NCBI RefSeq assembly: GCF_900143055.1
Contig: NZ_FRCW01000006.1
Location: 1-64,000, forward strand
From: Fibrobacter sp. UWR3
GTDB lineage: Bacteria; Fibrobacterota; Fibrobacteria; Fibrobacterales; Fibrobacteraceae
DNA length: 64,000 nucleotides
Direction: 5' to 3'
Position 1 is the first letter of the stretch, and each line of letters opens with the position of its first letter. The translations under genes were made by a program, and so were the position numbers. This document shows, piece after piece, positions 46,659-64,000 of the stretch. The notes under the pieces were generated by a model that searched no databases, was not told the DNA's origin, and saw only the letters and a list, made by a program, of their open reading frames with translations.

Positions 46659-46687
46659 GGCGCGCTTCGTTAGCGCGCTTTATTTTT
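46659..46687 (+). terminator. Intrinsic terminator of the yicC transcript
   Basis: GCGCGC-TTCGTTA-GCGCGC followed by TTTATTTTTT. Preceded by a GGCAA-TAAA-TTGCC hairpin (46597-46611) and two GCGGGCATGACATTA direct repeats (46624-46654). Confidence 0.8.
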
Positions 46688-47537
46688 TGGAAGTCTTCTT
46701 CTTGTCCTTCATCTCGACGCGGCGGCTACCCGCACGCAGGCGTTCCCACGGTGCAAAGGATGACACCGGAACGAGGAACACGAAGAACCACACGACAAAC
46801 AGCAGGTACCTGAGAATGCCGTAAATGACGTTCGCCTTCCCGAGCATATCGATGGTTATCGCCGCCTCGAGAAGCAATGCCCCCACAATCACGGGCACAA
46901 ACAACTGCTTTGCAGCCTCCACAATGGCACCGTTCTGCGGAGCGCCCGCCCCGAGATGCTTACCCGCTACAACGGCAAACGCCATCGCACTTGCAAAACC
47001 GAATGCCGACTGCACGCCCCATACCAGGTTCATGGGCTCTTCCGCTGGCCACGGGATGGCGGTCAGTATCGCGCACAGGAAAAGCCACGCCAGCGCAAAC
47101 GGGAATAGCACGCAAGCTACGGACAACTTTGCAAACAGGAGCAACAGGAGCGAAACAAGTGCGAGAATTCCATACATCGGGAGGGCAAGATCCTCGCTAC
47201 CGCCCATCACCATGAGCGCACCGCCCAGGAGTGCGGCAGAAACAACCGAAGCGATACCGGCACGGGCCCCGCCAAAAACGATAAACATAACTAAGCCCGC
47301 AAGTGCTGCAACTGCTAGGTACTGCGAAGACGCCCAAAAACCTTGGACATTATCAATACCGGCAAGCCACATGCCAAGCCCCTCGGAAGCGGCTATCGGG
47401 AGTCCGACAAGGAAATCCCACGACTTTGCAAGTACAGTTACCGTCACAATGACCATGACCACTACCGCAATAAGGCGGACGCGGAGCATCAGTTCCAAAA
47501 AGTTCTGTACCTTGCCCGGTTTTTCACGCAAATCCAT
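46680..47537 (-). CDS. Hypothetical multi-pass membrane protein
   Basis: 285 residues with about eight predicted transmembrane helices, a short cytoplasmic N-terminus and a Lys-rich C-terminus (KDKKKTSKK). No family recognised. Located 3 nt beyond the porU-like gene's stop on the same strand, it is likely the last gene of that operon. Confidence 0.75.
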   Translation of the reverse strand: MDLREKPGKVQNFLELMLRVRLIAVVVMVIVTVTVLAKSWDFLVGLPIAASEGLGMWLAGIDNVQGFWASSQYLAVAALAGLVMFIVFGGARAGIASVVSAALLGGALMVMGGSEDLALPMYGILALVSLLLLLFAKLSVACVLFPFALAWLFLCAILTAIPWPAEEPMNLVWGVQSAFGFASAMAFAVVAGKHLGAGAPQNGAIVEAAKQLFVPVIVGALLLEAAITIDMLGKANVIYGILRYLLFVVWFFVFLVPVSSFAPWERLRAGSRRVEMKDKKKTSKK

Positions 47538-47540
47538 CAA

Positions 47541-50500
47541 TTACCTCGATATTAATAGTTTCTGTTTCTTGGTCCACGTCTTGGACTTCAAATCTGCAGT
47601 CGCCGAGACCTCGTTACGCACAACATAATGATAAAGCCCGTTGGCGAGAAGTCTTCCGTGATTATCGCGGCCGTCCCAGTGCGTCACGCCCGAAACGGCA
47701 TCCTTGATGACCTTCACCAAACGGCCATGCTGATTGTAGATAAAGATATTTACCGTAGATTCACGCCCCACCGCAAGATTCTTGAAGTAGAACGTGGTTC
47801 CCTTCTTGCCCACCGGATTCGGAACGTTGAACACGTCGGCAAGGCCGGACTTGAGATCTTCTGTAATTTCCAGGTTCAGCGTCTTCACGGCAGTATTGCC
47901 CAGCACGTCGAGGGCACGGACCCTGAAGGTGTATTTCCCCTCCGGGTACGATTCCGCAGTGAACGACTTGTGAACTACCGCCCGCTTCGAGGACTGCTCC
48001 AGATACGGGTACGGATGGTAGGGATATTCGATTCCCTCGACCTCGAGCGATATACCCTCATCTGCATATTCGCGGAAATCAAGCGCCGTAGAATCTTCGA
48101 TAATCACTTGCAAACATGCGGGAGACTGCAGGCGCACCGTCTGCCCGTCGGCATACGAGTTTTCCGAACCCTTCGCAAAGCAGTTCTGGATAGAAATTGT
48201 CGGAGGGACGGTATCCTGTATGGAATCCGCATACGCAGAGAAACCGGAGATGGTAATGCCGCCCGCCCTGTAACGCCCGATAGCACGTTCGTCGCTGGAA
48301 TACGCCCATGCAGTGAGCTCCACCGCCGTATCACCAAACGAAATCTTGCGCGGGGTTATGAATTCCGTCTCGTAGCGGCCTCCCGTTACCGGCACCTTCT
48401 CGGAATACACCAGCGTGCCATCGTACACCACCTCGAGAGAATCCTCCGGATGCTCGGGGTCACCCAGGAACAGGTTCTTGTTCCGGCGGCTTTCTCGCAT
48501 GGAAAGTTCTATCACGCCATTATCCATTCCCGAAACGGAACCGGAAAGTTTTACCTTGTCAAGCGCCTTGAGCGTATCGATTTTCTGGTCGAGCGTTACC
48601 TTGAACCCGTTACTCAGTATTTTTATCACGGGCTCGCCGATAAGCACATAGTGCTCGTTATTATAACGTTGTCTGTACAGGCTTGCATTGTTCAATGAGG
48701 TCAACTGTTCCGCATTCGTATTTTTAGCCCGCATAAAGGCCTCGCCTATCGTAATGCCGTCGTTACGGAGCAGGTTGAACACGAAGTTCTTACCGAACTT
48801 TTCATTGTTTGTCGCAAACGTCTCACGAGCAGCGCCCACCGAGGCAATGGAGCCCGCCGATTTCGCAACAACGAATTCCTCGGAAAGCGAGCGCTTGATA
48901 CCCTCGTCGAAACGACCCACGATGCAGGAGAACGAATTGAGAATCGTGTAGCGGCCCGTATTCGAAATTCTGGAGAGGTAGCTGGGCTTGAGCAGGCCTT
49001 CTGCCGCCCAGTCCGTCTTGGAACCGTGCCCGAAATACGTCGTCATCAGGGCGCCCTGGTTCAGCACGTTCAGCAAATCTTCGGTGGCGGCCTTCTTCTG
49101 GCCCGCGGCATCTTCCTTGTAGTCAAGCAGGTAAACCTTCTTTTGGCTCCAGTGGTAGTTGAGTTTTTTCGCGAGCGAATCGATGGAACGGGAAAGCCCT
49201 TCCTGCAACGTGGTGTGCCCGGTCCTGTCGACCCCCGTACCGTTCTTCGCGTCGTCCGCCGTCAGCAGCAATGTATTGCGCCATTCGGAATGGTCGAACC
49301 GGCCCACCATATCGTAGTCCTTCGCCTTCTCGAGATACGCGGAAAATTCAACGGGAGTACTTATCGGGAGTCGCCCGACAGCCAAGTCCAGGTCGTAGAA
49401 ACCGGTACGCACCATCTCGCCCGAATCGAGCACGGCAAAGAAATCCTCCGTGACGTTATCTTCCATCTCGAAAGGCGGCATGTAGTTCTTGCCCAGCTTT
49501 TCCTTGATTCCGCGATAGTCGAAATGTCCCGTACCGACAAGCAGCACAAACCGGAGATCGGGGCACACGGAATGCGCGTAGGAGATGTAGTTCCTTAGGG
49601 CAACCGGCGATGCAGAACCGCCCGTATAGTGGCGATAAATATCCTCGACATTCACTACAGTCGTCGCATACGAGGCTATAGCCTTCCCTTCCGAACGGAA
49701 TCGGCCCAAGGCAACAGCGCCTTCGATAAACTCAGGTGCAGAAATTATGAGGTATTCCGTCTTCGAGTTGATTTTCGCGACATCGAAAAGAAGGTCATTC
49801 GATTCTTCGGTCAGGCCCTCCACGCGAACAGCGGTCCTGTACGTGCCGTTTCTGTAGGCAAGGTACCTCACGTCTTCGGACGCACTCACGCTATCGAGCG
49901 CATAGCCACCCTCGCTCGCAAGCACGCCCACAGGTTGCATGTTGCGGAACTTGAGCAGGCTCACTCCACTTGGAACCGGGAGGCGAACCAGGCCAGATAC
50001 GCGGCCCGGCAGGAACCATTCCGCACTGTCGACCACCGGGTTCCACTGGTAAGCAATCGTATAGCCGTCAAAGCGGTCGTACTGCCTCGAGTTCGGGAGC
50101 ATCGTCAGCTGGAACCTGTTGCCAGAATCCTCTAGCGGGACACCCGCCACCTGCATGGTCCCGTAGGCGACAAGCTTCATATCCGCATCGGAATAGGTTT
50201 TCCCGTTGACGGAGAAATTGTAGCGGATTTCCTTCATGCGTTCCAGCATGCTCGATGTCGAAAGCATCACGCTCGGAATCTGGTCCTTTTCGCGCTCCAC
50301 GAACGAATCCCAGATGGAGCGGTGCGGGAAATACGATACCTGCAAAAGAGTTTTCCCGCCTTCAATGCGGCCCGGAAGGCTAGAAAGATGCGCCATCCCG
50401 ATATCGGACTTGACTGCAGTATCGAGGCGGCAGTTCCAGTGCCAGAACCATTCCTTGCCCGAAGATTCTTCCCACTCGATTCCCTTGCCGTAATACGTGT

Positions 50501-51623
50501 CGCGAAGCCGCACATCCTTTTCAGCACGCACGTAGCGCATCAACGGAACATCCTTCGCAGAGCCCCTGTACGCGGGGAGAGTCTTCGAGAGGCGCAGCGC
50601 ATCGCCCGAGCCATTCCACCCCAGCTGGAAATACTGGTAGAACGAATACGGCGAAACGGAATGGTAGTAGACGCTATCTTCAAGTTTCCATATCGACGTG
50701 CCATAACCGACAAACACGATTGTATCGCCATCATCGAACGTTCCGTTGGCGGGCCCCGAACCGCGCTTGGAGTGGTCACGGATTTCTATGGGAATTTCAA
50801 AGAGATGCGCGGGAGCGACATCGCGAGAACCGGGAACCACTGCAGGCAGGGTATCGGCAGATGCACCATACAGCCTGAGCTTTTCGACAGGAATGCCGTT
50901 CAGGCTATCCTGCATCGTGTACGGGAGGGCGTTGTGGATTGTCCTGTAATCCACCGCATAGAGGCCGTCTTCGCTGTGGGTTGCCACATCCTTGTCGCCC
51001 ACAAGGAAGCGCGCAAGGAAATGCACGTCGGAAGGACCGACCGAAGCAGTACGCCGGAGCGACTTGCGGAACACATTCTGCGACACGCCAAAGCGAGCGG
51101 CACCATTCGTGTTTACGACCCGCGAGAGGGCGCGCTTTCCGGGATTTACGCCCGAACCAACCATGGAGAAATCCACCTCCAGGCGGAAATCCTTGCGCAG
51201 CCTTACCGAATTGCCGAAGCGCTCGTACAGGGGCACGCGCACGTCCACCATCCAGAGGCCGTCCTTCAAGAACGGGGCAGATGCCCTTACCGGCGAAAAC
51301 TTGAGGGTTGCTCCCTCGCAGTAAGATGCCCCCAACGGGATGGTCTTCTTGACGGAAACGGACACCCGGGGCCTTGCACCCGCGGGGATAGCCACGCGGT
51401 ACGTGCGGTAAGGCACATCACTTGAATCGCCAAGCGTCGCATTTTCCGGGACAAAACGGCTTCCCGGAACCGCCTCGCCCAGTTCGTCGATACACCCGTA
51501 AACCGAGGCATCGAGCACCTCGTCGTCTGCAACAAAGCGCGAGCGGGAATCCTCCACCACGTTCATGGCGAAAGAGGCTACAGCCAGGAGCAAAACCGCT
51601 ATTATGGACGACTTAAACTTCAC
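47541..51623 (-). CDS. PorU-like C25 peptidase family protein with C-terminal sorting-like domain
   Basis: 1360 residues. A signal peptide is followed by a beta-rich N-terminal half, then a gingipain-like C25 domain (about 600-1000): YLIISAPEFI, a catalytic His in TYFGHGSKTDW (about 864) and a catalytic Cys in NSFSCIVGRFD (about 899). The end (about 1266-1360) reads FNVPNPVGKKGTTFYFKN...YNQHGRLVK...WDGRDNHGRLLANGLYHY, the FlgD-like fold of type IX sorting domains. PorU is the cell-surface sortase of the type IX secretion system, so a related system is inferred here. No porV is adjacent. Confidence 0.85.
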   Translation of the reverse strand: MKFKSSIIAVLLLAVASFAMNVVEDSRSRFVADDEVLDASVYGCIDELGEAVPGSRFVPENATLGDSSDVPYRTYRVAIPAGARPRVSVSVKKTIPLGASYCEGATLKFSPVRASAPFLKDGLWMVDVRVPLYERFGNSVRLRKDFRLEVDFSMVGSGVNPGKRALSRVVNTNGAARFGVSQNVFRKSLRRTASVGPSDVHFLARFLVGDKDVATHSEDGLYAVDYRTIHNALPYTMQDSLNGIPVEKLRLYGASADTLPAVVPGSRDVAPAHLFEIPIEIRDHSKRGSGPANGTFDDGDTIVFVGYGTSIWKLEDSVYYHSVSPYSFYQYFQLGWNGSGDALRLSKTLPAYRGSAKDVPLMRYVRAEKDVRLRDTYYGKGIEWEESSGKEWFWHWNCRLDTAVKSDIGMAHLSSLPGRIEGGKTLLQVSYFPHRSIWDSFVEREKDQIPSVMLSTSSMLERMKEIRYNFSVNGKTYSDADMKLVAYGTMQVAGVPLEDSGNRFQLTMLPNSRQYDRFDGYTIAYQWNPVVDSAEWFLPGRVSGLVRLPVPSGVSLLKFRNMQPVGVLASEGGYALDSVSASEDVRYLAYRNGTYRTAVRVEGLTEESNDLLFDVAKINSKTEYLIISAPEFIEGAVALGRFRSEGKAIASYATTVVNVEDIYRHYTGGSASPVALRNYISYAHSVCPDLRFVLLVGTGHFDYRGIKEKLGKNYMPPFEMEDNVTEDFFAVLDSGEMVRTGFYDLDLAVGRLPISTPVEFSAYLEKAKDYDMVGRFDHSEWRNTLLLTADDAKNGTGVDRTGHTTLQEGLSRSIDSLAKKLNYHWSQKKVYLLDYKEDAAGQKKAATEDLLNVLNQGALMTTYFGHGSKTDWAAEGLLKPSYLSRISNTGRYTILNSFSCIVGRFDEGIKRSLSEEFVVAKSAGSIASVGAARETFATNNEKFGKNFVFNLLRNDGITIGEAFMRAKNTNAEQLTSLNNASLYRQRYNNEHYVLIGEPVIKILSNGFKVTLDQKIDTLKALDKVKLSGSVSGMDNGVIELSMRESRRNKNLFLGDPEHPEDSLEVVYDGTLVYSEKVPVTGGRYETEFITPRKISFGDTAVELTAWAYSSDERAIGRYRAGGITISGFSAYADSIQDTVPPTISIQNCFAKGSENSYADGQTVRLQSPACLQVIIEDSTALDFREYADEGISLEVEGIEYPYHPYPYLEQSSKRAVVHKSFTAESYPEGKYTFRVRALDVLGNTAVKTLNLEITEDLKSGLADVFNVPNPVGKKGTTFYFKNLAVGRESTVNIFIYNQHGRLVKVIKDAVSGVTHWDGRDNHGRLLANGLYHYVVRNEVSATADLKSKTWTKKQKLLISR

Positions 51624-51655
51624 TTTCTAAAAATACAAAATAGGCACATGAAAGA

Positions 51656-52495
51656 TTACGGGTTCGTGATGACCATTTCGTAAAATCCGTTGCCGTTGGT
51701 CTTGAATTCTACCCACTGGCCGCCCACCGCCTTCGTCCGAAATATGGTATAGGACTGCGGGGGCACGCCCTTCTTGAAAATCGCCGTAAGTTCGGCATCC
51801 GAAATCATGGCCTTCGCGTTGAACGCGGGCATGTACCAGTGCCACGCCTGCCAGTTGAACAGCGCGCGGGTGGACTGCACGAAGGCACGGAGCATCAGGG
51901 CGTACTCGTACTCGAAAAACGCACGGTAGTTGTTTATCTCGTTTTTCTTCTCGACGGTCGTCTTCTTCTCAAAATCGCTGTCAAAGCGAAGCGGGGTCGC
52001 ATCGGGCTTGGAATAGCTGAAGCGGATGTACTTGTCGTTCGCCGAGACCTTCAGACTCGGCCTGTCCAGATGCACGAACTCGGATGCGCTCACCTGCCGG
52101 TAGTCGCGGAACACCACTTCGGGATTCAGCACGCGGTTCATCTCGAGCGGCACGGGCTTGGCATCGAGGGCTTTAAGCTCGTAGAACACCAGCACCTCGC
52201 CCGCCCCCTTCGGGAGCAGCGCGCACAGGAGCGGCAACTTACGTTCCGAAAGCACCCACACCATCTTGGGCTTGTTGCTTGACTTGAGCAAAGGGTCCAG
52301 CACGCCCATCACGGAGGGGTCGCGGATACCGTTCACGTCCCATTCCATCCAGGTTCCGGGGCCACCCACGGAATCGAGAACCGCAAAGAGGCGGTTCCCG
52401 CTGAATTCCGCCTTCGAATCGACCGCGCCCACCAGTTTTGCCGGAGCGGCGTGTACGCAAATGGCGGCTAGCAATAAGAGAAAAACGACACGCAT
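51656..52495 (-). CDS. Hypothetical exported protein
   Basis: 279 residues with a signal peptide (MRVVFLLLLAAICVHAA). No recognised domain; mixed beta/alpha with YRAFFEYEYALMLRAFVQS suggesting a long helix near residue 200. It lies between the lipoprotein gene (0 nt gap) and the porU-like gene (32 nt), so is probably part of the same operon and perhaps the same surface pathway, which is inference. Confidence 0.75.
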   Translation of the reverse strand: MRVVFLLLLAAICVHAAPAKLVGAVDSKAEFSGNRLFAVLDSVGGPGTWMEWDVNGIRDPSVMGVLDPLLKSSNKPKMVWVLSERKLPLLCALLPKGAGEVLVFYELKALDAKPVPLEMNRVLNPEVVFRDYRQVSASEFVHLDRPSLKVSANDKYIRFSYSKPDATPLRFDSDFEKKTTVEKKNEINNYRAFFEYEYALMLRAFVQSTRALFNWQAWHWYMPAFNAKAMISDAELTAIFKKGVPPQSYTIFRTKAVGGQWVEFKTNGNGFYEMVITNP

Positions 52496-53233
52496 CTAGA
52501 ATCCGATAGGCTCAAGTAGGCTCTCGTCGAGGCGGGAATACGTCATGCGGTATTCCTTCTCTATCCAATAGAGCGCGAGTTTCCTTGCCGTCCAGTTCTT
52601 CTTGACTGCGATGGATTCAATGCCCTTCGTGATAAGCGGAATCGTTTCGGGCAAGTTGAGTTTCCATTCCTTGTCGTCCCATTCGAAAATCATGATGGGC
52701 ACTTCGGGGCTCTTGGCAAGACCGATGCTCCCGCGATCGTTCTTCACCTTCATGGGGCCAAGCGGCAAGTTGGTGAGCCTGTCGAACATCCCGCTCTTGC
52801 TGAGCATCATGAACAGCATGCGGTCCTCGTCGGTGGCCCACAGGTGCTCACGCTCGTAAAGGCGGTAGAGGATAATGGAATAGGCCTCGTAGAACTGGCA
52901 CGTGTCAATCGCCTCTGCATTGTAGGTACGAGCATGGTTCTCGAGCGTATCGAGCCAGTATTCCGAAGTATCGGTCAGGAAGGCGTAAAGGGTATCTGCG
53001 GGGGCACCCTCGCGCACGGCTGCGATAAAGTTGTTGAACATGATTTCGAGCAGGGCCTGCTTATCCTGCTGCTGGCCCTCGTACAGGGCATCCTTCACCT
53101 GGGCAGAAACCTCGTTCGAGCCCGAGGCCGCATCCTTGGCTCCGGAATTTTCGGACGTGCCCGCACAGGCGACAAAACCAAGCGCAAGCAGAGCCACAAG
53201 CGCCACAACTATTTTATTTTTCAGGTCATGCAT
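52496..53233 (-). CDS. Hypothetical lipoprotein, first gene of the porU-like operon
   Basis: 245 residues. Lipobox in ALGFVAC, short Ser/Gly/Asn linker, then a helix-rich soluble domain (LYAFLTDTSEYWLDTLENHART). No family recognised. Ends directly at the start of the exported protein at 52495. ATG at 53233 follows GAGGT by about 10 nt on the minus strand; the 5' end lies next to, or slightly overlaps, the divergent RF-like gene. Confidence 0.78.
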   Translation of the reverse strand: MHDLKNKIVVALVALLALGFVACAGTSENSGAKDAASGSNEVSAQVKDALYEGQQQDKQALLEIMFNNFIAAVREGAPADTLYAFLTDTSEYWLDTLENHARTYNAEAIDTCQFYEAYSIILYRLYEREHLWATDEDRMLFMMLSKSGMFDRLTNLPLGPMKVKNDRGSIGLAKSPEVPIMIFEWDDKEWKLNLPETIPLITKGIESIAVKKNWTARKLALYWIEKEYRMTYSRLDESLLEPIGF

Positions 53234-53251
53234 CGCGATACCTACCTCAGA

Positions 53252-53719
53252 ATGACATTGGACCAGCTGCTCGCCGCCTGCACCCAGAAGGGTTTCCAGG
53301 GGTCTGGCCCGGGCGGGCAACACCGCAACAAGACCAATACCGGAGTCCAGCTGAACCTTCCGCAGTACAATTTAGAAATCAAATCCTGCGAAGCGAGGAG
53401 CGCGAAGGAAAATAAGACCCATGCACTGCACCGCATGCAGATGGCGCTTGCCCTGAACGTGCGCGAAACGCCACCAGCTACAGAAATCCCCTTCCCCGGG
53501 AGCAACGGGCACATACAGACCAGCAATGCGCTGTTCCCATTGTTCGTGGCACACGTGTTCGACATCATGGCGACCAAGAACGGAGACACGAAGGCTGCGG
53601 CACAGGCGTTCGGCATAAGCCCGAGCGCCCTCGTGAAGATACTCAGGCAAGACAAGGCCTGCGCAGAAAAGCTGCAGAACCAGCGCGTTGCCGGCGGGAA
53701 GGCGAAACTGAAACTGTAG
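53252..53719 (+). CDS. Peptide chain release factor-like (GGQ) protein
   Basis: 155 residues. GSGPGGQHRNKTNTGVQL is the class I release-factor domain with the peptidyl-tRNA hydrolysing GGQ; AKENKTHALHRM follows as in that fold. There is no codon-recognition domain, so it resembles ribosome-rescue proteins (ArfB/RF-H-like). The C-terminus has KNGDTKAAAQAFGISPSALVKIL, a helix-turn-helix-like segment. ATG at 53252 is preferred because ATG at 53228 would overlap the divergent lipoprotein start. Confidence 0.85.
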   Translation: MTLDQLLAACTQKGFQGSGPGGQHRNKTNTGVQLNLPQYNLEIKSCEARSAKENKTHALHRMQMALALNVRETPPATEIPFPGSNGHIQTSNALFPLFVAHVFDIMATKNGDTKAAAQAFGISPSALVKILRQDKACAEKLQNQRVAGGKAKLKL

Positions 53720-59177: not shown

Positions 59178-61259
59178 CTACTTCAGAACAATGCGCTGGA
59201 CTTTAAGTAGCACCCTGCCGACGGTCACGCGCACCACGCGGGCGCCACTGCCCAGGCCCGAAAGGTCGAACCGTCCTTCCGCCCCGTCAAAGCCGTAGCG
59301 GGTCAATTCGTTGCCTTGCAAGTCGAACACGCGAAGCGTCTTTGCCCCAGCGCTCGGGGCTCGCACATTGAGCACACGCCCATCGAGGTCCAGCGAACAC
59401 GCCGCATTCAGCGAGACTTCCAAAATCGCGGTCGTCGAGGAGTCCCCCTCCATCGAGGAACTGCTGGAGGAAATCGGCCACCAGACCATGCTGGAACTGC
59501 TCGAAAGTTCGGCCACGCTGCTCACCGGCTGCACACTACTGGAACTTCTCCACACACTAGTACTGCTGGAACTTGCCACCGCCCAGCTGCTGGAGCTCAC
59601 GACACTTGCACTACTACTGCTCACTGGGGCAACGCTACTGCTGCTCGCCAGTTCCGGGCAGCTGTTCACGCCCACCGACTGCTTTGTGGAGAAGCAAACC
59701 CGGTCTTTGCCGGACTTTAGCATGTTGTACACGTTGTAGCGGCTCGAGAAGGTGGCCATGGTCCTGCGCGGCGGATTCGAGGCGCTGAACTGCTTTGTAC
59801 CCGAATTGCTTCCGCTGCCAACGAGCGTCGCCGCAAGCGTGTAACGCCGAGCATCGCCCTTGTTGGGGAAGTAGTCCCAGGCATCACTGGTGTAATTGAC
59901 ATACCAAATGTACACGCCGGTCTCGGCGCTTTTGTTGTCAAAGTCGGTGCCCGAGATTTTGGAGTCCCAGCCAATGCCGGGGCGATACTCGATCACATAG
60001 AATTCATCCTGATTCGAGGGGTTGGTAATGGAGTACGCCTTGTTCGCATCGATGTTCGGCAAAACATAAACGTCGTCCGATTCCTTAAGCTCCTCGATTT
60101 TCATCCAACCCATGGATTCCCTCTCAAAGGCACTGTACTTGGGAGGCTGACGCCCCAGTCCCCCCGTATTGTAACTATAACCGTTGTACATACCCTGGGT
60201 CATTACATCGTACGGCGATGGCCCAGGGACCCATTCATCCTCGTAGTTCGAATAAAAATCGGGCAGCCCAAGCACGTGGCTAAATTCATGGGTCATGACG
60301 CCAATGCCATTGTTCGCGCCGTCGTCCGCCAGCTGCGCAATCAAAAAATACCGTTCGAACTTGTAGCCGTTGTACTTGGTATAGCGGTCATAGACCGAGT
60401 ACCAGTACATGTGCCCCCACATACCCGTATTTTTTTCGGGCCCGGCCATCACAATGCCAAAACCGTCTATCACCTTGTCGCCATCAGCGTCGTATTTGTT
60501 GAGATTGGCGTCGCCTATGGCGGCAGCGCCCGCCTTGACAACCGCCTTCACAAAAGAACCCTCATCGGAGCCCGCCGATGCCATATTGACATTAACCTTC
60601 ACGGGGACCATGTCGAACGTCGGCCTAAAAATATTATTCGACGATACCTTGAAGTAGTCACGAATGCTGCCGTAATGGGAGTCCTCGGAATAGCCTTCCT
60701 TGTTGCACTGGTCGTTGTAAGCAGCGACCTCGGCATCCGAGAAGGTGCGCTCATCGGTTCCGTCGTTCGAGGACACCAAAAAAACGGGGAATCGGACTTC
60801 CCCCTTGGTAAAGGTGAGCGGTTCGGGGCGGTACATCACGGGCACCGAAGACTCCTGCGCAGGCACCTTGTGGTTCAACCTGAACCCTTCCATAAGGCGC
60901 TTTTGCTGGTCGGGGTAAGCATCTGGATGCTTTTCGCGATGCCTAGCGAGCATCTTGTAAAGATTCTTGGATTTCAAGAACGCCGTCGCCTTTACGGAAC
61001 GGGCATCCACATTCTCCGCCTTAAATTCCGAAGGTTCCGCATTCTCGTCGGCAAACTTCCTAAAACCGTCCTCGTCCTTCAAAACCAGGTAACCATCGGA
61101 AGTCGTCTCATAATGGTAGTTTTCGTCCCCGTGTTCAAAGACCGAGACTACGCTGCCATCCGGCTGCTGTTTTAGAATCAAGAAGGGATTTGCGGGGCGG
61201 GCAAACGCCCCCGCACAAAAAACCAAACAAATAAAACCAACTATAATGTGTCGATTCAT
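59178..61259 (-). CDS. M6 family metalloprotease with C-terminal sorting-like domain
   Basis: 693 residues. Signal peptide (IVGFICLVFCAGAFA), propeptide-like region to about 150, and an immune-inhibitor-A-type peptidase domain with THEFSHVLGLPDFY (HExxHxxGxxD, about 323). A Ser-rich linker (about 540-606) leads to a terminal domain with LDLDGRVLNVRAPSAG...RVFDLQGNEL...VVRVTVGRVLLKVQRIVLK, like a type IX secretion sorting domain. ATG at 61259 chosen; ATG at 61265 is also possible. Likely a secreted protease. Confidence 0.92.
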   Translation of the reverse strand: MNRHIIVGFICLVFCAGAFARPANPFLILKQQPDGSVVSVFEHGDENYHYETTSDGYLVLKDEDGFRKFADENAEPSEFKAENVDARSVKATAFLKSKNLYKMLARHREKHPDAYPDQQKRLMEGFRLNHKVPAQESSVPVMYRPEPLTFTKGEVRFPVFLVSSNDGTDERTFSDAEVAAYNDQCNKEGYSEDSHYGSIRDYFKVSSNNIFRPTFDMVPVKVNVNMASAGSDEGSFVKAVVKAGAAAIGDANLNKYDADGDKVIDGFGIVMAGPEKNTGMWGHMYWYSVYDRYTKYNGYKFERYFLIAQLADDGANNGIGVMTHEFSHVLGLPDFYSNYEDEWVPGPSPYDVMTQGMYNGYSYNTGGLGRQPPKYSAFERESMGWMKIEELKESDDVYVLPNIDANKAYSITNPSNQDEFYVIEYRPGIGWDSKISGTDFDNKSAETGVYIWYVNYTSDAWDYFPNKGDARRYTLAATLVGSGSNSGTKQFSASNPPRRTMATFSSRYNVYNMLKSGKDRVCFSTKQSVGVNSCPELASSSSVAPVSSSSASVVSSSSWAVASSSSTSVWRSSSSVQPVSSVAELSSSSSMVWWPISSSSSSMEGDSSTTAILEVSLNAACSLDLDGRVLNVRAPSAGAKTLRVFDLQGNELTRYGFDGAEGRFDLSGLGSGARVVRVTVGRVLLKVQRIVLK

Positions 61260-61362
61260 TTCCATTACCTCAAGATGAAAATATATCAACGCACTTTATT
61301 GAGAGCAGCCCCCAACGAATTAACGTGTAAAAAACGTGTTTTTTACACGCAATTTACATACC

Positions 61363-62020
61363 CTAGTGATTCTTGGGCGCAGAAACACGGCGGCCCTTCA
61401 AGTCGTAGAAGCGCTCGCGCGAAAGCACGTTGAGTTCCGGCTCCCCGTAAATGTTCTTGCGTACAAGATCAAACGATTCGCTACTAGAAGTCGAAGGTTC
61501 CTCGGCACTGGAACTGGACTCGAGTCCAACCGAGCTGGAACTCTCCACGACCGAATTGGAGCTGTAAAGCACTTCGCTGGACGAGCTCATGGCTTCGCTC
61601 GAGGAACTCAGGAACACAAGACTGCCACTGCTGTAGGCGATCTTGAACTTTACCGACGAGTCGGTCTCGGTGATTTCAGACAAACTCACGCCAAGGCTCT
61701 CTCCGCTCCACAAGGCAAAGTTATTGATAGAAGTCTTTCTTTCGTTACCGGAGAACGGATCCCCCTCGTACGTTCCTTGCTTATAGCCCCAGCGCGATGG
61801 CTGGTTTCCCTTGCCATCGGCCTCGATCAAGTCCACACGCTGGAGGTCCAACACGTTCAACTCGTTCTTGCTCCACGCCGTCTTGTCGTAAGTAATGTGC
61901 CAAACGAGCATCCCGTGCATCGGAAGTCCGGCATCAAAGCCCTTTTGCATGCGGTAATCCAAAAAGTATCGCTCAAAGGCATTCAAGTACGGAGGCGAAC
62001 AACTGTACACGTAATAACGG
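61363..62020 (-). pseudogene. C-terminal fragment of a second M6 metalloprotease
   Basis: About 219 residues, from YYVYSCSPPYLNAFERYF to RFYDLKGRRVSAPKNH. GMLVWHITYDK, NVLDLQRVDLIEADG, GDPFSGN and NFALWSGESLGVSLSEIT are typical of the C-terminal part of M6 peptidases; a Ser-rich linker and a short YDLKGRRV tail (sorting-like) follow. The catalytic N-terminal part is absent because repeat copy 2 begins at 62021. It lies just upstream of the intact M6 gene on the same strand, suggesting tandem paralogues. Confidence 0.8.
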
Positions 62021-62253
62021 GGCTCTGTCGGGCCAGACCGTACTTTTGGGTCGAAACTGCGAAAACGCTGCGAAAATGACCCTCTGGCTCTGTTAGGCCA
62101 GGCCGTATAGCTGCGAACATGCTGCGGACCGCCGAATGACCATTTCAGCGTAAAAACATCGGTCATGCAGCCGAAAAACAGTTTTGGAAGGGCTTACGGA
62201 ATGAGGATTTTTTGCTAGCCGAGGTCGGGCGTACAGATTGGCCCAGCAGAGCC
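62021..62253. repeat. 200-bp repeat, copy 2, with right-end inverted repeat
   Basis: Identical to copy 1 over 207 bp (62021-62227). Its right flank ends in TGGCCCAGCAGAGCC (62239-62253), a degenerate inverse of the left end GGCTCTGTCGGGCCA, so the copy looks like a TIR-bounded element of about 233 bp. Confidence 0.9.
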
Positions 62254-62262
62254 TCCCCTTAT

Positions 62263-62510
62263 GGCTCTGTCGGGCCAGGCCGTACTTTGGGGTCGAAACT
62301 GCGAAAAAGCTGCGAAAATGGCCCTTTGGCTCTGTTAGGCCAGGCCGTATAGCTGCGAACATGCTGCGGACCGCCGAACGGTCATTTCAGCGTAAAAACA
62401 TCGGTCATGCAGCCGAAAAACAGTTTTGGAAGGGCTTACGGATTGAGGATTTTTTGCTAGCCGGGCACAAGTGTACAGTTTAGCCCGACAGAGCCTAGCC
62501 CGACAGAGCC
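62263..62510. repeat. 200-bp repeat, copy 3, with two right-end inverted repeats
   Basis: About ten differences from copies 1 and 2 over 62263-62462. The right end carries TAGCCCGACAGAGCC twice (62481-62495, 62496-62510), exact or near-exact inverses of GGCTCTGTCGGGCTA/GGCCA. Separated from copy 2 by 9 bp, giving a 14-bp hairpin between the two elements. Confidence 0.92.
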
Positions 62511-64000
62511 GGTAAATTCGTCATCTTCTAGAGTCGCGCTATCGATATCATAAATAATATCTGCATCCGCAGTCGCGTTGCCAGCATCAATACTTTTCTT
62601 GTACTTCTCAATCTTGTCAACTGTTTTTTGAACCAGTTCGTGATAACGGTCCAATGTCAGCTTGAACGAATAGACAGAACTTTCCAGGCGCTTGAGCATG
62701 TTGATGCTCATGAGTTTCCGAATGCCCATTTCGCGGCCAAGCAACAAATCCTTTTCTTCGGAACTGTCGATATAGCCCTCGATACGGCTCGGGTGCACAA
62801 ATCGCGCCGGACTATAGACACTCATTTGCAACTGACTCAACAGCAGATAAATGCTATCGAACGAAATTCCCGCCACGTCGGTCAAGTCGGAAGATTCCGA
62901 AATGGGCGGCAACCGTTCCGGGAACTTGCCCACCTCATTGATGTCGTAAAATTTTTCGATATGCTTGCGGGAACGCGCAATCGTTACCGAATCAAGCAAT
63001 TCAAAAAAGTCAAAATCCAACGTTTCAAGCAACGCCTGCGTAGTTCGCTGAGAGGCCGGGAGTTTTACCCACGCATTGTAGGCACTCTGCGCCTGCTTGA
63101 AAATGGAATCAATGCCGTTGTTCAAGTTCAGCAGAGAATCCATCTTTTCTGAATCATCCTCGTAGGCCAAGCGCAACTGGTTCTTCAAATCGTTGAAGCG
63201 ATTGTTCACCGGCGTTGCCGAAAGCATCAGCACCTTCGTCTTCACGCCCTTGCGAATGACCTGATTCAATAAGCGCTGGTAACGGTTTTCCTTGCGGTCG
63301 ATATCATCGTCAAATTCATCGGCAGAAAAATCATCGCCCGTGGCCGTACCACCATTGCGGAAATTATGGGATTCATCAATCACCACAAGGTCGTAGTTGC
63401 TCCAAATAATGCGGCTTAAGTCAAGGCCGTTTGTGCTCCCCGAATCACGCGACAAGTCCGAATGGTACAGCACGTCATAACGAAAACGGTCCGTAACAAG
63501 CGGATTGTTCGTCTGGTTATTCTTGAAGGTCATCCAGTTGTTGTTCAACTTCTTGGGACAAAGCACCAACACGTTCTTGTTGCGGTTCTCGTAATACTTG
63601 ACCACCGCAAGCGCCGTGAAAGTCTTGCCAAGACCCACGCTATCGGCGAGAATGCAACCGTTGTATTTTTCCAATTTGTTGATGATAGCAAGGGCCGCAT
63701 CTTTCTGGAAGTTGTAAAGCTTTTGCCAAATAGCACTTTCCTTGAAACCCGTCGCCGAATTCGGCAAAACATCTTCGCTGATGTCATTCAAGAATTCATG
63801 GAAAATATTGTAGAGCGTCACGAAATAAATGAAGTCGGGAGAATTTTCTTTATAGACCGTAGCAATGCTGTCCATGACCGCCTGGGTCACTTCTTCAAAT
63901 TGCGATTCGTCAAACCAACATTCGTTGAACTTGTTGATGTAATCGTTAGAAAGCGGGGCCGAAACCCTCATGCTAAAATTGGAAATGTTGTTGCCTTTTT
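62457..64000 (-). pseudogene. SNF2-type helicase fragment, truncated at the 3' end by repeat copy 3
   Basis: The frame is open to the window edge, so the 5' end lies outside. Visible: GNNISNFSMRVSAPLSNDY, resembling the end of a PLD-type nuclease domain; then the SNF2/DEAH core with ADSVGLGKTFTA (Walker A), VVIDESHNF (Walker B) and SATPVNNRF. The second helicase lobe is missing: homology stops near 62511 and the last residues, GSVGLGSVGLNCTLVPG, and the stop come from the repeat. PLD-SNF2 helicases often belong to DNA-defence systems. Confidence 0.75.

Follow-up and report, generated by a model that had tools for sequence, protein, structure and literature searches.

The window, by which we mean the whole 64,000-nucleotide stretch of DNA analysed here, is part of contig C6 of a Fibrobacter genome (G000; 3.55 Mb, completeness 100), and its nearest relatives are Fibrobacter from the rumen and the horse gut. 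Its minus strand carries a tight run of four genes (positions 46680-53323), kept in nearly all of the Fibrobacter loci examined, the largest of which encodes a homologue of PorU. The features of this run, together with a further gene of the window that bears on its interpretation, are as follows.

46680-47540, minus strand: conserved multi-transmembrane protein, 286 amino acids, abutting the stop codon of PorU (synteny)
47541-51623, minus strand: PorU homologue, 1360 amino acids, GTG start, predicted Sec signal peptide at about residues 1-20
47544-47834, minus strand: C-terminal CTD-like β domain, about residues 1264-1360, of the PorU type and not the cargo type (sub-threshold PF13860 and PF13585; reach of the NF033707 match; alignment to the C-terminus of P. 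gingivalis PorU)
48621-49754, minus strand: C25 catalytic domain, residues 624-1001 (Pfam PF01364, E = 6e-66; a genome search gave the same span)
48924-48926, minus strand: codon of the putative catalytic cysteine, Cys900 of SFSC (motif position, invariance, alignment to PorU)
49026-49028, minus strand: codon of the putative catalytic histidine, His866 of GHGS (motif position, invariance, alignment to the GHG of PorU)
49872-51560, minus strand: N-terminal region of PorU, residues 22-584 (AF2 model and Foldseek)
51656-52495, minus strand: conserved gene directly upstream of PorU, 279 amino acids, secreted (synteny with PorU in Fibrobacter loci)
52496-53323, minus strand: conserved putative lipoprotein, 275 amino acids as called, second gene upstream of PorU (synteny)
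59178-61289, minus strand: M6-family metalloprotease with a type A CTD-like tail at 59178-59426 (TIGR03296, 123 bits, over cut-off; cargo-tail profile, 32.2 bits)

None of the three partner genes of PorU matches a Pfam or NCBIfam family above cut-off. A kinship of the 286-residue downstream protein to the product of a PorU-adjoining gene in another genome (G014) was considered and set aside as unsupported, the match having an E-value of 0.006 over 21 residues.

An earlier reading of the DNA, made from the sequence only, had noticed the His and Cys motifs of C25 peptidases and an FlgD-like end in this protein, and both observations hold. The motifs GHGS (residues 865-868) and SFSC (residues 897-900) lie within the Pfam Peptidase_C25 match listed above, and neither His866 nor Cys900 varies among 29 homologues; in an alignment to P. 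gingivalis PorU, the two residues fall on its GHG and TC. The C-terminal end matches FlgD_ig (PF13860, E = 4.8e-5) and CHU_C (PF13585, E = 1.1e-4), in both cases below the gathering cut-off.

The assignment of the protein to PorU, which that reading had also proposed, draws on its whole length. The NCBIfam model of the T9SS sortase PorU (NF033707) matches it with an E-value of 1.5e-109 and extends to position 1094 of the 1095 in the profile, with a score, 367 bits, that is below the curated equivalog cut-off of 420 bits. A phmmer search of solved structures gave P. gingivalis PorU (6za2) at 93 bits (E = 7.7e-26, query residues 720-1345) and gingipain R at only 11 bits (E = 0.49), so that a closest kinship to the catalytic domain of RgpB or Kgp was not found by this search. 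The protein was modelled with AlphaFold as residues 585-1360 (pLDDT 80.9) and residues 22-584 (pLDDT 68.9), and for both halves the best match in the PDB found by Foldseek is 6za2, with E-values of 1e-29 and 4.4e-7, respectively. Gingipain pro-domains come next for the N-terminal half (E of about 4e-3), and this region, as modelled, thus appears similar to those pro-domains as well as to the corresponding part of latent P. gingivalis PorU. As a single rigid body, the model does not superimpose on 6za2 (TM of about 0.3). The order of domains is nevertheless that of P. gingivalis PorU, namely an N-terminal region, C25, an Ig-like domain and a CTD, and the GHG and Cys motifs are retained. The two proteins differ in sequence (about 19% of residues identical when the structures are aligned), in length (1360 residues against a solved chain of 1156) and in gene context, as the Fibrobacter gene belongs to a conserved run with the three partner genes listed above and does not adjoin a porV.

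The C25 fold is common to the catalytic domain and the gingipains, the structures of which (4ief and 6i9a) take Foldseek ranks 3-5 for the C-terminal half, and the score below the PorU cut-off could likewise be taken to mean that the protein is an ordinary secreted gingipain-like protease with a type IX sorting tail, i.e. a cargo and not a sortase. Against this stand the 93 bits for PorU compared to 11 bits for gingipain, the likeness to PorU in both halves of the protein, and a C-terminal tail that is unlike the cargo tails of the same genome (see below). The protein is, moreover, the sole C25 in its genome, and NF033707 matches 150 of 151 Fibrobacterota genomes, as would be expected of a piece of machinery. 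We therefore rejected a gingipain-like cargo protease on sequence and fold, and phylum-wide conservation with collinearity to PorU largely refutes it as well; we regard it as the least credible reading of this gene.

Hardly more credible is a PorU2-type sortase, with PorV2 as its partner and another class of substrates. The PorU2 model NF052324 (PorU_rel_Nterm) does match the catalytic domain (103 bits, E = 9.5e-30), and the PorV2 model weakly matches the N-terminus of the PorV homologue described below (32 bits). The canonical PorU model, however, scores 367 bits and reaches the final profile positions, no second C25 is present in the genome, and the cargo tails are of type A.

Considering (i) the single C25 of the genome, (ii) the synteny of the gene in Fibrobacter, and (iii) the matches of NF033707 to 150 of 151 genomes of the phylum, which rise to 538 bits and exceed the curated cut-off in 33 of the 151, the 367 bits of the window protein are best explained by divergence within PorU rather than by membership of a separate family. 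Sequence, predicted fold, the pair His866/Cys900 and the absence of another C25 in the genome all concur, and the C25 domain does not group with the gingipains. We thus put at roughly 90% the probability that the gene encodes PorU, which would act as surface sortase in a type IX secretion system of the Fibrobacterota's own. The enzyme as such is ordinary. Two PorU-like genes are present in some other Fibrobacterota, namely G016 (C366), where they adjoin each other, and G018 (C69 and C100).

The claim that this sortase itself bears a sorting-like C-terminal domain is correct, and the domain is unsurprising. P. gingivalis PorU retains its own CTD, as PorZ normally does (PMC5562754), and the PorU CTD is among the CTD structures that have been solved (PMC11285876). 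Because P. gingivalis PorU keeps its CTD, such a domain is to be expected here, and we dropped the tail as a remarkable feature of the protein. A profile built from 15 cargo tails of the same genome and run against 132 ORFs gives the PorU tail 3.8 bits; this mismatch counts against the PorU reading, yet it fits a special CTD that is not cleaved. Tails matching TIGR04183 are numerous in the genome: 63 at E ≤ 0.01, about 40 of them above cut-off.

Both M6 proteases of the window had been credited with sorting-like ends, which holds for one of them. The protease at 59178 scores 32.2 bits with the cargo-tail profile, the next best of the 132 ORFs reaching 6.0 bits, and it scores 15.3 bits with TIGR04183, below the 23-bit cut-off; its tail makes it a probable T9SS cargo. 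The M6 ORF at 61363 (3.3 bits) was rejected as a CTD cargo, since its tail goes no further than the first strand motif and the ORF, which lies beside a 242-bp tandem repeat, is a truncated remnant. This repeat (1.8 copies, 95%; window positions 62021-62463) separates the M6 remnant (61363-62166) from a helicase-like ORF that also seems truncated (62457-63998).

Outside the window, the same genome encodes SprA (C3:77240-83827, a frame of 2298 amino acids, 1378 bits), and the SprA model matches all 151 Fibrobacterota genomes. The PorV/PorQ family is present in 21 of the 21 Fibrobacterota genomes searched for it, over cut-off in 20. Besides the PorV homologue, G000 has a second barrel (L101:6073-7017), which is PorQ-like (80.9 bits). 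The other type IX components are thus not missing altogether: SprA, barrels of the PorV/PorQ family and about 40 above-cut-off sorting tails in one genome support the type IX-like pathway that had been suggested for this lineage.

A 2016 survey found complete T9SS in Bacteroidetes only (PMC4793230), and SprA has been recorded in most FCB phyla, Chlorobiota excepted (PMC12611786). Within the genus, a T9SS has already been proposed for F. succinogenes S85, where the basic terminal domain of cellulases was read as a T9SS CTD (PMC6851124). That proposal differs from ours in being argued from cargo tails; PorU and SprA have 0 occurrences each in its main text. The peptides of mature F. succinogenes cellulases detected by mass spectrometry in that study do not overlap with the terminal domain (PMC6851124), and since they stop short of it, they fit cleavage of the CTD. 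Compared to the T9SS of Bacteroidota (SprA/Sov, PorV, PorU, PorQ, PorZ, PorKLMN), the Fibrobacterota share SprA, PorU, the PorV/PorQ family and many type A CTD tails. They differ in their PorV, which carries an inserted propeller, and in the motor components, as GldM was not detected in 151 genomes and GldL and GldN in 21.

The best PorV homologue of G000 (at about C3 351133-353519; L102:5132-7516, matched frame L102:5324-7516) matches the PorV profile in two pieces, positions of about 4-43 and 43-325, with some 370-390 residues between them. It is over the cut-off of PorV_fam (148 bits) and below the 250-bit cut-off of the PorV equivalog. PF19572 is over cut-off in six of six PorV homologues, in two of them by at most 0.2 bits. 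The insert, which lies near the N-terminus, is a β-propeller of the Reg_prop type: a profile of the six homologues matches the sensor BT4663 (4a2l) with an E-value of 7e-25, the best match of the insert, and PorV (6h3i) with 3e-16. The pairing of barrel and propeller recurs in homologues from three families of the class. A PorV with an inserted PorZ-type β-propeller in Fibrobacterota is, as an observation, new. In P. gingivalis, the attachment complex consists of PorU, PorV, PorQ and PorZ (PMC5562754), the propellers of PorZ have been likened to those of BT4663 (PMC5121618), and PorZ presents a glycolipid to PorU (PMC8545088). P. gingivalis secretes PorZ as a protein of its own, which has two propellers and a CTD, whereas the Fibrobacterota propeller sits inside the barrel protein. 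The propeller-bearing PorV fits the attachment complex, as if PorV and PorZ-like parts had been fused. By analogy, the propeller may place glycolipid binding, a task of PorZ in P. gingivalis, on the anchor of PorU. As a natural fusion, this protein predicts where PorZ is placed relative to PorV and PorU.

Taking the PorU family membership, the collinearity, the catalytic residues, the single C25 and the co-occurrence with SprA, the PorV family and CTD tails together with what is described for P. gingivalis, we propose the following model. A cargo protein that has a type A CTD in addition to its Sec signal would pass through the SprA channel and would then be picked up by the PorV-type barrel. 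PorU, itself exported, would be held on the surface by its own retained CTD, where His866 and Cys900 would remove the CTD of the cargo, and PorU would probably join the new C-terminus of the cargo to a surface glycolipid. The CTD cleavage, the transpeptidation, the anchoring by PorV and the nature of the lipid are modelled on P. gingivalis and may apply here by analogy. The model bears on how Fibrobacter, a rumen cellulose degrader, anchors its cellulases.

Of the porV, sov/sprA and gld homologues that the earlier reading had proposed to look for, SprA and the PorV family came up, and GldL, GldM and GldN did not. In profile searches, GldM/PorM gave nothing at E ≤ 0.001 in any of 151 genomes from 41 genera, and neither GldL/PorL nor the ring subunit GldN/PorN was found in any of 21 genomes. 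Inspection by eye of the surroundings of SprA in four genomes (G000, G014, G015 and G020) revealed no obvious shared cluster that might hide a motor. The GldM model scored 331-575 bits on three control records (a P. distasonis plasmid, a Cardinium plasmid and an IMG/VR contig) in the same run that gave no match in G000, and the GldL and GldN models scored 238 and 227 bits, respectively, on P. distasonis proteins. That SprA is found in 151, PorU in 150 and GldM in 0 of the 151 Fibrobacterota genomes, with working positive controls, appears to be a new observation.

The motor is considered indispensable to type IX transport: deletion of gldL or disruption of the GldLM motor in Flavobacterium leaves the substrate trapped in the SprA translocon (PMC10994853). 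Because SprA and PorU are kept with no recognisable GldM in 151 genomes or GldL and GldN in 21, either export in Fibrobacterota draws its power from unrecognised or unrelated proteins, or it is driven differently. At a little short of even odds, this may be a type IX system that works without the GldLM proton motor and the PorN ring and is made up of SprA, the fusion of PorV with a PorZ-like propeller, and PorU; its energy might come from unrelated proteins or from the capture and folding of the cargo outside the cell. A failure of detection, in which the Fibrobacterota motor and ring have diverged too far for models trained on Bacteroidota, is a serious possibility, albeit one that we consider somewhat doubtful. 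The models were indeed made from Bacteroidota, the window PorU itself falls under the cut-off of its model, GldL is short, and Cardinium GldN is already down to 74 bits with the GldN model. Conversely, the GldM controls include the reduced endosymbiont Cardinium, and the model stays silent across all 41 genera in genomes where those of SprA and PorU match strongly. If the motorless arrangement is real, a phylum with SprA and PorU but no recognisable motor offers a direct test of which parts a type IX system needs and what drives it.

Among the records that encode GldM, a complete porP-porK-gldL-gldM-gldN run is located on Parabacteroides distasonis plasmid 4 (L112, NZ_OY725749.1), labelled as a 169-kb plasmid, and GldM is also encoded by IMG/VR contigs from a virus collection (L110 and L111), which are probably bacterial DNA and not viral.
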